Position numbers and translations under genes: made by a program
In this document: positions 1 through 4,182 of the stretch, piece after piece
Layout of the letters: each line of letters opens with the position of its first letter
Numbering within the stretch: position 1 is the stretch's first letter
Origin: a bacterium
Lineage (GTDB): Bacteria > T1Sed10-126
Assembly (NCBI GenBank): GCA_003557545.1
Contig: PWOD01000049.1
Location: forward strand, 1 to 17,335
Length of the DNA: 17,335 bases
Reading direction: 5' to 3'
Notes under the pieces: model-generated
The model's input: the letters and a program-made list of their open reading frames with translations, nothing else
The model's database searches: none
What the model was told of the DNA's origin: nothing

Positions 1-202
1 CATGCGCCTGAGCCATACCACGTCCAGCCATTCTCATCTTTTCTGAAATGGCCAGTCCAGCGACGTCATCCGCGGCTCGATTAATCCTAAACCCACTTGC
101 CAATCGTTCCTGAGCTTCATTCAAAGATCGGTTAGTGAGGGCAATTTGTCGCTGTGCAAATGTAGCGGGTAAATTGTTGTTAACTCGAAATAAATCACTC
201 AT
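1..202 (-). CDS. hag: flagellin, N-terminal part (cut by left window edge)
   Basis: Only the first 67 codons lie in the window; the rest runs off the left edge. The product is a flagellin, the filament subunit exported through the flagellar type III apparatus. The visible part is the conserved D0/D1 helix: it opens MSDLFRVNNN and contains the flagellin signature ERLASGFRINRAADDVAG (residues 32-49). By hand alignment 45 of 67 residues match the complete flagellin at 2165-3058, so the two are paralogues. The ATG at 202 is preceded by GGGAGG about 8 bases upstream. That site can pair with a CCTCC just before it in the mRNA, so translation may be gated. A strong sigma-28-type promoter lies at 413-440, giving a leader of about 200 bases. 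The family call is firm. Whether this is a major or minor filament protein cannot be told. Confidence 0.93.
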   Translation of the reverse strand, partial: MSDLFRVNNNLPATFAQRQIALTNRSLNEAQERLASGFRINRAADDVAGLAISEKMRMAGRGMAQAH

Positions 203-272
203 GATGCAGGCCTCCCTCTATGGAGGATAAATCTGGATCTTCCTCTGCTAAATCTAAAATCGACTCCTCCAT
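195..272 (-). other. possible 25-codon leader ORF overlapping the flagellin start
   Basis: An ATG at 270-272 opens a 25-codon frame whose TGA stop (195-197) lies just inside the flagellin gene (ATG at 200-202). Its product would be short and acidic, starting MEESILDLAEED. The overlap would allow translational coupling. No Shine-Dalgarno sequence precedes this ATG, and its own GGAGGAG lies in a predicted loop, so it may be chance. Confidence 0.2.
211..226 (-). promoter_or_regulatory. hairpin that can sequester the flagellin ribosome binding site
   Basis: In the mRNA, CCUCC (222-226) can pair with GGAGG (211-215), leaving a 6-base loop. The GGAGG is the only good Shine-Dalgarno sequence for the flagellin start at 202, so the stem would hide it. 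The fold is short (5 base pairs) and the pairing is inferred by eye. Confidence 0.45.
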
Positions 273-280
273 AAATCGAT
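259..280 (-). promoter_or_regulatory. GGA-loop hairpin in the flagellin leader (possible CsrA site)
   Basis: The mRNA arms AUCGA (276-280) and UCGAU (259-263) form a 5-bp stem around a 12-base loop containing GGAGGAG. CsrA recognises GGA in hairpin loops, so this could be an upstream CsrA site paired with the ribosome binding site below it. The evidence is stem plus motif only. Confidence 0.35.
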
Positions 281-412
281 CAAAACAACTAAAGTCGTTT
301 ACTCAAATGATGGCTACTGAAAAAATGCAAACCGAATCACTACCACACCGACCGTATTCAATTTTCAAAGAACCAAGAATTAAAAATACTCCTCTATTAC
401 TCTTGAATTTTA

Positions 413-2164: not shown

Positions 2165-3058
2165 CTAAGGCAGCAGCTGAAGAGCCATCATCGGTCTTTG
2201 CTGAGCCTGCAACAAGATAGCCATGCCAGCCTGGGTCAAAATGTGAGCCCGAGTCTGATTAACCGTTTCCTGGGCAATATCAGCATCCCGTATACGACTC
2301 TCAGCGGCCTCAACATTTTCCTCCTGAATACGGAGAAAATCAACAGTACTTTCCAACCGGTTCTGTAATCCGCCGACTCTGGCCCGCGTAAAGGATACCC
2401 GGTCTATGGCATTAGTAACAACTTCAATCGCCGATTCGGCCTGTTGACGGGTCAAAACCGGTAAAACCTCATCAGTCTCAAGATCACGCAAACCAAGGGC
2501 AGCCCCGGTGGTTGTTTGAATATCATTAATCGTCACTCTGATCACATCATCCCTGTTCGCACCCACATGAAACACCAGAGAATTCTGTCCCAGCTGATCA
2601 ACCTGACCATCATTTCCCATTAAACCAAAATCGTTTTTCAGCAACTGCCGATTATTAAACTGAACGGACGAAGCCGAACGATCAATTTCATTAACCAGGT
2701 CCGCTATTTCGGCGTTGATCATAGCACGCTCATTATCTGTCAGACCATCACTGGCCGCATCTATCGCCAACACACGAATACTCTGAAGATTCTCAGTGAT
2801 AGCATCCAGTCCACCCTCGGCTGTCTGTAATACAGAAATACCATCCTGAGCGTTAGCGCGCGCCTGTTTCAACCCTCTGTGGGTTGACCGCATCCGCTCA
2901 GATATGGCCAGTCCGGCGACATCATCCGCCGCCCTGTTTATCCTCAGCCCACTGGCTAATCTCTCCTCAGCCTGATTAAGCTGACGAAAATTTCTCGCCA
3001 TCGATCTCTGGGCAAAAGCGACCAGCATATTTGAATTAATCCTGAATAAATCACTCAT
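2165..3058 (-). CDS. hag: flagellin (complete)
   Basis: Filament subunit of 297 residues. The N-terminal D0/D1 region starts MSDLFRINSN and includes ERLASGLRINRAADDVAG. The C-terminal D1/D0 region runs from about residue 200 to the end (ESRIRDADIAQETVNQTRA... QAGMAILLQAQQ). The centre is short, so this is a minimal flagellin without D2/D3 domains, close to the size of Bacillus Hag. It lies directly downstream of csrA, the order known from Bacillus, where CsrA represses flagellin translation and FliW relieves it. The leader has two hairpins with GGA in the loop (3067-3081 and 3086-3109), the first covering the ribosome binding site AGGAGGGAG. No convincing sigma-28 promoter was found in the 399 bases upstream, unlike the left-edge paralogue. 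The N-terminus MSDLF- is a few residues longer than the usual flagellin start. Confidence 0.96.
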   Translation of the reverse strand: MSDLFRINSNMLVAFAQRSMARNFRQLNQAEERLASGLRINRAADDVAGLAISERMRSTHRGLKQARANAQDGISVLQTAEGGLDAITENLQSIRVLAIDAASDGLTDNERAMINAEIADLVNEIDRSASSVQFNNRQLLKNDFGLMGNDGQVDQLGQNSLVFHVGANRDDVIRVTINDIQTTTGAALGLRDLETDEVLPVLTRQQAESAIEVVTNAIDRVSFTRARVGGLQNRLESTVDFLRIQEENVEAAESRIRDADIAQETVNQTRAHILTQAGMAILLQAQQRPMMALQLLP

Positions 3059-3066
3059 GGTAAGTC

Positions 3067-3081
3067 ACTCCCTCCTGGAGT
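3067..3081 (-). promoter_or_regulatory. CsrA-type hairpin over the flagellin ribosome binding site
   Basis: The mRNA reads ACUCC-AGGAG-GGAGU: a perfect 5-bp stem with GGA in a 5-base loop, spanning the AGGAGGGAG Shine-Dalgarno sequence 9-12 bases before the flagellin ATG. This is the geometry of the B. subtilis hag BS2 site, where CsrA competes with the ribosome. Binding itself is inferred. Confidence 0.65.
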
Positions 3082-3085
3082 TTGA

Positions 3086-3109
3086 ACTCGTCTCATCCTT
3101 GATCCGAGT
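3086..3109 (-). promoter_or_regulatory. upstream CsrA-type hairpin in the flagellin leader
   Basis: The mRNA arms ACUCG (3105-3109) and CGAGU (3086-3090) enclose a 14-base loop, GAUCAAGGAUGAGA. The loop contains CAAGGAUG, which matches the core of the CsrA consensus RUACARGGAUGU. It stands directly upstream of the ribosome-site hairpin, so the two form a BS1/BS2-like pair for one CsrA dimer. Confidence 0.62.
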
Positions 3110-3141
3110 CGTAAAACTAAATTGAATCAACCACTCTACTT

Positions 3142-3200: not shown

Positions 3201-3380
3201 AAATAAAAGAATTATTATCCTCATCCAACTATCTTCAGCTGTAACTGTTGCTATCTCATGAGCCCTCAAATGCTATTTAAAAAAGAAAAACCTACTCCCC
3301 CTGACAGCAAAAAGCTGAACAAAATGGAATAGGCTAAATTAGTCGAATTATTGATTATCAAACCTCCATGTGAAAAATAT

Positions 3381-3410
3381 CAGGAGAAGCATCCTTGCTT
3401 CCCTATCCTG
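3381..3410 (-). terminator. hairpin behind csrA with an AAGGAU hexaloop
   Basis: The mRNA inner stem GAAGC/GCUUC closes the hexaloop AAGGAU. An outer stem CAGGA/UCCUG is separated from it by a 4-base bulge on one side. A short U-run (AUAUUUUU) follows, as in a weak intrinsic terminator for csrA. The loop with its closing bases, GCAAGGAUGC, is also close to the optimal CsrA ligand, which is presented as GGA in a hexaloop. It may therefore be a terminator, a CsrA-binding element, or both. Confidence 0.5.
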
Positions 3411-3420
3411 CTACATCCAC

Positions 3421-3449
3421 AGTATGCAACAGGATTTAAAAAAAGTCAA
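3421..3449 (-). promoter_or_regulatory. possible sigma-A promoter for flagellin (or a short RNA)
   Basis: Reading the minus strand, TTGACT (3444-3449), a 17-base spacer, then CATACT (3421-3426). The -35 element matches TTGACA in 5 of 6 positions and the -10 element matches TATAAT in 4 of 6. It begins just after the csrA stop. A transcript from about 3414 would start immediately before the GGA-loop hairpin at 3381-3410. Confidence 0.35.
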
Positions 3450-3457
3450 AATCTTTT

Positions 3458-3706
3458 TTAGATTTTTTTGTTTTTACTTTTATCTCGAATAAATTGGGCG
3501 GCTGATATGATCTCTTTTTCTGAGCTTTCAACCGCATTGATCGTCTCTTTTTTTATCTCCTCATAAACCTCATGACGGTGGATAGGAATATCCCTTGGTG
3601 CCTCAATTCCAATCTTCACCTGATCCCCCTCCTGCCCTACAATCATTATCTCAATATCATCTCCAATCATTATCTTTTCATCAATCTTACGAGTTAAAAT
3701 CAACAT
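3458..3706 (-). CDS. csrA: carbon storage regulator CsrA
   Basis: RNA-binding homodimer that represses or stabilises mRNAs by binding GGA motifs. The sequence MLILTRKIDEKIMIG at the N-terminus and APRDIPIHRHEVYEEI at residues 36-51 are family hallmarks. The RNA-contact residues L4, R6, H43 and R44 are present at their usual positions. At 82 residues it is longer than the roughly 61-75 usual for the family. The extra C-terminal helix ends in a lysine-rich tail (RDKSKNKKI). In Bacillus the C-terminal extension is the part FliW binds. The ATG follows the fliW stop by 2 bases, so the two are translated from one message. No clear Shine-Dalgarno sequence precedes it. Instead the start codon lies in AGGGAUGU, the core of the CsrA consensus, suggesting autoregulation. 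Identification is certain; autoregulation is inferred. Confidence 0.97.
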   Translation of the reverse strand: MLILTRKIDEKIMIGDDIEIMIVGQEGDQVKIGIEAPRDIPIHRHEVYEEIKKETINAVESSEKEIISAAQFIRDKSKNKKI

Positions 3707-3710
3707 CCCT
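3699..3710 (-). promoter_or_regulatory. CsrA consensus core covering the csrA start codon
   Basis: The mRNA around the csrA AUG reads UAGGGAUGUUGA. AGGGAUGU fits ARGGAUGU, the 3' part of the CsrA consensus, at all 8 positions. Only a weak 3-bp stem (AAC/GUU) flanks it, so a loop context is not well supported. Binding here would block initiation directly. Confidence 0.4.
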
Positions 3711-4182
3711 ACGTTCTACCTTCGGCCAGCAGATCCTCGCGGCCAGTCTTCTCAAGCTCGGCTAAAACTGAATGTCTAACAGTATAATTATCCACCTGAT
3801 TTATTACCTGTTTTCCAATATAATTATTCTGATTAATAATAATCGGACCCCGAAAATTTACAGTCATTTTTTCCGGATCCCGGGGAACCACAACAATCGA
3901 ATAGATAGCCAGATCCTCAGTTGAATTCGTTCCAATTTTTTTTAAATCGTCAGTTGAAATGGATAGTTTATATTGTGGATTTATCAGCTGTGGGCAAACA
4001 ATAACAAAGGCAAGATCACGATTCCCCAGGGCTTGAAGCCATTCAAAAGGTTGTTCTTCCTCTTTGCCGATTATCACATATTTCTCCTGCTCTTCGAAAC
4101 CAAACAGGCCATTTTTTATAGTCACTATTCGAGAATCATCAATCTCAATCTCACCATAAGGTTTAGACTCTATCTTTTGCAT
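3709..4182 (-). CDS. fliW: flagellar assembly factor FliW
   Basis: FliW binds flagellin when subunits accumulate, and otherwise binds CsrA and blocks its RNA binding, so flagellin translation follows filament export. The 157-residue protein fits the family. The N-terminal part has the strand-turn pattern YGEIEIDDSRIVTIKNGLFG. A core segment reads FEWLQALGNRDLAFVIVCP, the middle carries IYSIVVVPRDPEKMTVNFRGPI, and the end has the usual helix (VRHSVLAELEK). The ATG at 4182 has only a weak ribosome site (AAAGGG, about 10 bases away). The stop abuts csrA with a 2-base gap, an arrangement typical of this pair. The upstream 301 bases contain a possible sigma-28 promoter and two GGA motifs. Confidence 0.96.
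   Translation of the reverse strand: MQKIESKPYGEIEIDDSRIVTIKNGLFGFEEQEKYVIIGKEEEQPFEWLQALGNRDLAFVIVCPQLINPQYKLSISTDDLKKIGTNSTEDLAIYSIVVVPRDPEKMTVNFRGPIIINQNNYIGKQVINQVDNYTVRHSVLAELEKTGREDLLAEGRT

Follow-up and report, generated by a model that had tools for sequence, protein, structure and literature searches.

A candidate CsrA decoy RNA encoded directly behind csrA in the uncultured phylum T1Sed10-126

Introduction

The RNAs known so far to soak up CsrA are mostly small RNAs of Gammaproteobacteria, with a few mRNA leaders besides. What, then, could a GGA-loop hairpin be doing directly behind csrA itself, in a bacterium that also encodes the CsrA antagonist FliW? The original prediction for this locus left three answers: a terminator that also titrates CsrA, a long leader of the flagellin mRNA containing a third CsrA site, or a small CsrA-sponge RNA. 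An ANGGAX hexaloop placed directly on a stem is a high-affinity ligand of CsrA/RsmE (PMC4005645). Titration of CsrA by a flagellin leader has been proven in C. jejuni, where the flaA leader sites bridged by a CsrA dimer are 21 nt apart, 18 nt being cited as optimal (PMC4894983).

Here we analyzed a whole stretch of DNA (the window), a 17,335-base contig of a 2.15 Mb metagenome-assembled genome (MAG). Its phylum, T1Sed10-126 or ‘Candidatus Busufiota’, is listed with two genomes, both from hypersaline soda-lake sediment and 2.15-2.2 Mb in size (PMC11382960). All statements on conservation come from a single pairwise comparison, between the window MAG and one MAG of the same phylum and another genus (the relative).

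Results

The csrA locus and its spacer

On the minus strand, the genes run in the order flgN, flgK, flgL, fliW, csrA, flagellin and flaG, with flgK and flgL assigned by sequence (Table 1). With fliW, csrA and the flagellin gene adjacent and CsrA sites predicted in the flagellin leader, this is the makeup of a FliW-CsrA-Hag partner-switch locus; FliA is also present. The CsrA core of the window aligns with CsrA/RsmE chains of solved structure, among them that of CsrA in entry 5dmb, and the CsrA proteins of the window genome and the relative are 67% identical.

The spacers between csrA and the flagellin gene align in collinear blocks that follow the same order in both genomes. Past GGGCTCATGAGA, nothing notable is conserved until the flagellin leader’s final 50 bases. 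Between the terminator and this leader, hardly any sequence is conserved and the two genomes are about 160 nt apart in length, a pattern suggestive of two separate units. The sequence GGGCTCATGAGA itself occurs exactly twice per genome, behind the csrA-3′ terminator and beside a terminator upstream of rpsB (second copy in the window genome, C236:9092-9103; relative, C104:43340-43351 and C54:47314-47325). We found no support for it as a promoter element.

Table 1 Predicted and annotated features of the csrA-flagellin region. Offsets are counted from the csrA stop (window/relative).
Feature	Position in window	Strand	Offset	Details
fliW, CsrA antagonist	3709..4182	-		Pfam FliW 2.1e-36
csrA	3458..3706	-		Pfam CsrA 1.6e-25
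P1, sigma-A-like promoter (predicted)	3421..3449	-		TTGACT-N17-CATACT; predicted start near 3414; 9 nt behind csrA stop
Spacer block, promoter hexamers			8/8	
12-bp inverted repeat	3405..3435	-		ATCCTGTTGCAT/ATGTAGCAGGAT, over P1 -10 and start site; window only, absent from relative
Spacer block			58/59	AGCAAGGATGCT
CsrA-site 1 (predicted), AAGGAU hexaloop hairpin	3384..3403	-		GGGAAGC[AAGGAU]GCUUCUC; 7-bp stem; loop 3396-3391
24-nt block, identical in relative	3354..3377	-	80/85	TTTTTCACATGGAGGTTTGATAAT; relative L003 about 1837-1860
CsrA-site 2 (predicted, linear)	3362..3371	-		ACATGGAGGT; perfect linear CsrA consensus ACAUGGAGGU, inside 24-nt block
Spacer block			120/124	TTAGCCTATTC
Intrinsic terminator (predicted)	3279..3335	-		AGCCUAUUCC...GGGGAGUAGGUU hairpin + UUUUUCUUUUUU; -22.0 kcal/mol
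Spacer block			162/167	GTAGGTTTTT
Spacer block behind terminator	3254..3265	-	192/210	GGGCTCATGAGA
Flagellin-leader CsrA hairpin (predicted)	3085..3110	-		AAGGAU loop 3095-3100; equivalent hairpins in relative’s flagellin leaders
Flagellin Shine-Dalgarno hairpin	3067..3081	-		ACUCC-AGGAG-GGAGU
Flagellin gene (hag)	2165..3058	-		Pfam Flagellin_N + Flagellin_C

A conserved GGA hairpin behind csrA

The AAGGAU hexaloop hairpin that had been predicted in the csrA 3′ region, with a loop of the high-affinity ANGGAX class, is indeed present on the minus strand, 61 nt from csrA in the window and 62 nt in the relative. The prediction had made its own fate depend on whether the loop is kept as GGA in relatives. 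The outcome favoured the prediction: in the one relative compared, the loop is identical and all seven stem pairs are kept; four of the seven differ, three of them by two-sided, compensatory changes. When the two csrA-3′ hairpins are set beside two flagellin-leader hairpins, 28 of 28 cells pair, with two-sided changes in five of the seven pairs.

Hairpins of this type are rare in both genomes. In 894 kb of strand-sequence from the window genome, the csrA-3′ hairpin is the single case of an AAGGAY hexaloop carried by a stem of 5 bp or longer. A scan of 634 kb from the relative gave four, of which one lies behind csrA and three belong to flagellin leaders. Across the 1.5 Mb of strand-sequence combined, every such hexaloop therefore belongs either to a csrA-3′ element or to a flagellin-leader CsrA hairpin. 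A check of CAAGGAYG across the window genome, made from pattern matches and individual sequence stretches, covered all 47 sites; the csrA-3′ hairpin has the longest stem (7 bp), and the runner-up, with 6 bp, lies inside a coding ORF. The csrA loci of 20-odd distant genomes showed no comparable hairpin directly behind csrA, and flagellin-leader-type hairpins were found among these genomes only in L005, which belongs to another phylum.

A second candidate CsrA site downstream

The 24-nt block that follows the hairpin is identical in both genomes, compared with a maximum of 11 identical bases in shuffled controls. It contains ACAUGGAGGU, which matches ACANGGANGU perfectly; neither the window nor the 20 kb of the relative around the element has another such match. 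Taken alone, this match is within chance (about 0.5 expected per region); its position is conserved. Counted on the sequence, site 2 lies 27 nt from site 1 in the window and 31 nt in the relative, and the pair has the arrangement of a flagellin-leader-type module, an AAGGAY hexaloop hairpin with a second GGA about 20-30 nt downstream.

The original prediction had also pointed to three more GGA motifs. All are present on the minus strand (GUGGAUG, 3420-3414; CAGGAU, 3410-3405; AUGGAGG, 3369-3363). However, the GGA of CAGGAU is base-paired in the predicted transcript fold and that of GUGGAUG coincides with or precedes the predicted start at 3414. This leaves two credible CsrA sites, the AAGGAU loop and ACAUGGAGGU. 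Each predicted RNA has five GGA in all, of which only one sits in an ANGGAN hexaloop and one in a consensus linear site. No conserved start codon or ORF follows GGAGG in window 3354-3377 and the relative, and the overlap with a Shine-Dalgarno sequence that marks a flagellin leader was not found there. We rejected a short reading frame downstream of GGAGG that starts with TTG and has 31 codons in the window, as its spacing is 1 nt and it stops after six codons in the relative.

Predicted promoter and terminator

The sigma-A-like promoter proposed right after the csrA stop, P1, is present in sequence and conserved in position. Its counterpart in the relative, TTGACA-N17-GATAAT, scores 11/12 at the same 9-nt distance from the csrA stop and is the best sigma-A match of its spacer (4 of 300 shuffles equal it, and 296 are beaten). 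The window copy is weaker; its score of 9/12 is not significant alone, and the best score in its spacer, 10, is reached by 22 of 300 shuffles. Conservation of P1 in the window is weak by score and exact in position. The inverted repeat over P1 could possibly form a hairpin in read-through RNA or serve as an operator.

The GGA hairpin is not the terminator, one of the roles that the original prediction had considered for it. It is followed by CUGAUAUUUUU, with no proper U-run, and in the relative 9 nt separate the stem from the U-run, so that a U-run is adjacent in neither genome. A far stronger, separate terminator hairpin lies about 60 nt downstream, beyond the interval that the original prediction covered, and had been overlooked there. 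In the relative, this terminator (-28.9 kcal/mol) has both arms conserved, a different inner part and U8; the long inner part caused both terminators to be missed by a terminator scan. From P1 to the terminator, the predicted transcript is about 130 nt long in the window (fold z-score -2.2) and 139 nt long in the relative (-6.0), and would have a promoter and an intrinsic terminator of its own, as expected of a sponge sRNA. An antiterminator pairing of GGAUAGG with CCUAUUCC is possible in the window and was rejected, as it is not conserved in the relative; inspection of both genomes by eye found no conserved competing antiterminator pairing.

Flagellin leaders

In the flagellin leader of the window, the AAGGAU stem is interrupted by a GA/GA internal loop and went uncounted in the contiguous-stem scan. 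The leader hairpins of the relative lie a short way upstream of a CUCC-AGGA-GGGAG Shine-Dalgarno hairpin or a variant of it, and with the looser loop ANGGAN two more of its flagellin leaders are added, giving a hairpin in five of the five leaders examined there. The distance from the AAGGAY hairpin to the Shine-Dalgarno GGA is 22-23 nt in flagellin leaders. Between the terminator and the csrA-linked flagellin gene, no sigma-28 promoter was recognisable in either genome. Perfect sigma-28 promoters, TAAA-N17-CCGATAAT, precede two further flagellin genes, in the window at 202 and below and in the relative at 48610; they are matched by 0 of 200 shuffles and lie 228-238 nt before the start codon (window copy at 413-440 on the minus strand; relative copy on C104 upstream of 48610).

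The second flagellin leader of the window (200-290, minus strand) departs from the AAGGAY type: its loop, AUGGAG, sits on a stem of 9 bp, GATCGATTT/GAGTCGATT, and its Shine-Dalgarno hairpin is CUCCAUAGAGGGAG. Several flagellin leaders also carry boxA-like elements that resemble the NusB/S10 site of rRNA leaders (GGTTCTTTGAAAATTGAATACGG; TGTTCTCTGACAATTAAATACGG; GCTCTTTGACATTC; ATCTTTGACATG), at 355-372 of the window (minus strand) and, in the relative, at C104:48450-48467, at 43456-43465 and in the leader of flagellin 46432. Where a sigma-28 promoter exists, they lie about 35-50 nt behind it. Such an element could shield untranslated, CsrA-repressed flagellin mRNA from Rho; a literature search for boxA together with flagellin found nothing specific. 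Outside the flagellin genes, the boxA-like TTCTCTGAAAACTGAACA occurs in the window genome at C185:4553-4570, with no rRNA adjacent on that contig.

Searches for further copies

Neither genome contains a further copy of the csrA-3′ element. A 17-mer of the element, compared with 85,000 species genomes, gave no informative match except the relative itself; the 14 other matches were either titled as other groups or untitled, and the single match inspected among them was unrelated. A genome-collection scan with FliW found nothing. In Rfam, the element matches no known family, the Csr/Rsm families included (CsrB model, 12.2 bits in the relative vs a gathering score of 71), and no UvrY/GacA-type box (TGTAAG-N6-CTTACA) was found near it with up to three mismatches allowed.

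Discussion

We estimate a probability of about 0.5 that the csrA-3′ region encodes a self-contained, two-site CsrA-binding decoy RNA of about 130 nt that eases flagellin repression. Such an RNA would be made from P1, directly behind csrA, would also form the 3′ end of the fliW-csrA mRNA, and would stop at its own terminator. Its AAGGAU hairpin and the linear ACAUGGAGGU 27-31 nt downstream would probably be bridged by one CsrA dimer, as in the flagellin leader. Since this two-site module has no start codon and runs into a terminator, the RNA looks like a decoy version of the flagellin leader that it appears to mimic. By lowering free CsrA, it would ease the repression of flagellin mRNA, acting beside the protein antagonist FliW. 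With one CsrA dimer per RNA, it would be a small sponge, and high abundance would be needed. We infer transcription, CsrA binding and titration from sequence, the binding from motif, structure and conservation. The predicted promoter, hairpin, site 2 and terminator arms are shared by two genera, whereas the RNA that separates the module from the flagellin leader shows no conservation, which supports the decoy reading. Among the three original options, the small CsrA-sponge RNA is best supported, with promoter position, hairpin, site 2 and terminator all kept in the relative. That this is a dedicated CsrA-sponge RNA, encoded at the csrA 3′ end of a FliW-using bacterium, we propose tentatively. 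For this uncultured phylum, T1Sed10-126, we know of no earlier proposal of a regulatory RNA.

The long flagellin leader of the original prediction survives in altered form. P1 could be the flagellin promoter, with the terminator ending most transcripts and read-through into the flagellin gene being altered by CsrA bound close to the 5′ end. The missing sigma-28 promoter, which two other flagellin genes do have, speaks for such attenuation, as does the retention in the window of what is the best promoter of the relative’s spacer, from which read-through may feed the flagellin gene. However, transcripts would have to pass very stable terminator hairpins for which inspection by eye showed no conserved antiterminator pairing, flagellin mRNA requires strong expression, and the poorly conserved, length-variable stretch before the flagellin leader points to separate units. 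We consider this attenuated leader, the main rival of the decoy reading, unlikely.

It is less probable still that the element acts only in cis, as an autoregulatory 3′ UTR through which CsrA alters the stability or processing of the fliW-csrA message without being titrated. Lying between the csrA stop and the operon terminator in both genomes, the element would be on every read-through csrA mRNA, but a promoter placed identically behind csrA in the two genomes would then be superfluous, and no RNase site could be read from the sequence. A plain operon terminator region with a GGA hairpin arising by chance seems very improbable. Although a terminator is expected behind csrA and a weak U-run does follow the hairpin, chance would hardly account for a loop and a 24-nt block that are identical across genera, for compensatory stem changes, or for a hairpin type otherwise confined to flagellin leaders.

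Compared with CsrB, CsrC and RsmX/Y/Z of Gammaproteobacteria, the proposed decoy RNA would likewise be an intergenic structured RNA with its own sigma-A-type promoter and intrinsic terminator, and with a GGA hexaloop on a stem as predicted CsrA site. It differs from them in having one strong loop site and one linear site instead of many, in its lack of an Rfam match and of a nearby UvrY/GacA box, and in adjoining csrA in a FliW-bearing organism. The untranslated leader of Salmonella fimAICDHF also antagonizes CsrA, but it is the 5′ leader of an unrelated operon and is used with CsrB/C (PMC4894983).

The closest parallels are found in flagellar regulons. The C. jejuni flaA leader, in another FliW user, also has AAGGA loops in hairpins and two GGA sites about 20-30 nt apart for a CsrA dimer (PMC4894983); there, however, the sponge is the flagellin mRNA itself, whereas here it would be a separate, terminated RNA without a flagellin start codon. 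The gene order fliW-csrA-hag is that of Bacillus subtilis (reviewed in PMC7652899; stoichiometry in PMC6529632), whose hag leader likewise combines an upstream CsrA site with another that covers the Shine-Dalgarno sequence, but an extra CsrA-binding RNA between csrA and hag is not described there, as far as the available part of PMC7652899 goes. According to the same review, Gammaproteobacteria lack fliW, and the occurrence of fliW is anti-correlated with that of BarA-UvrY. FliW and Csr sponge RNAs are viewed as alternative controls of CsrA, and a csrA-3′ RNA in a fliW-csrA-hag locus would join both. If the decoy reading is true, an RNA arm mimicking the flagellin leader is added to the partner switch, the csrA unit makes both a regulator and its decoy, and a decoy would be seen to originate from the 3′ end of the regulator’s own operon.
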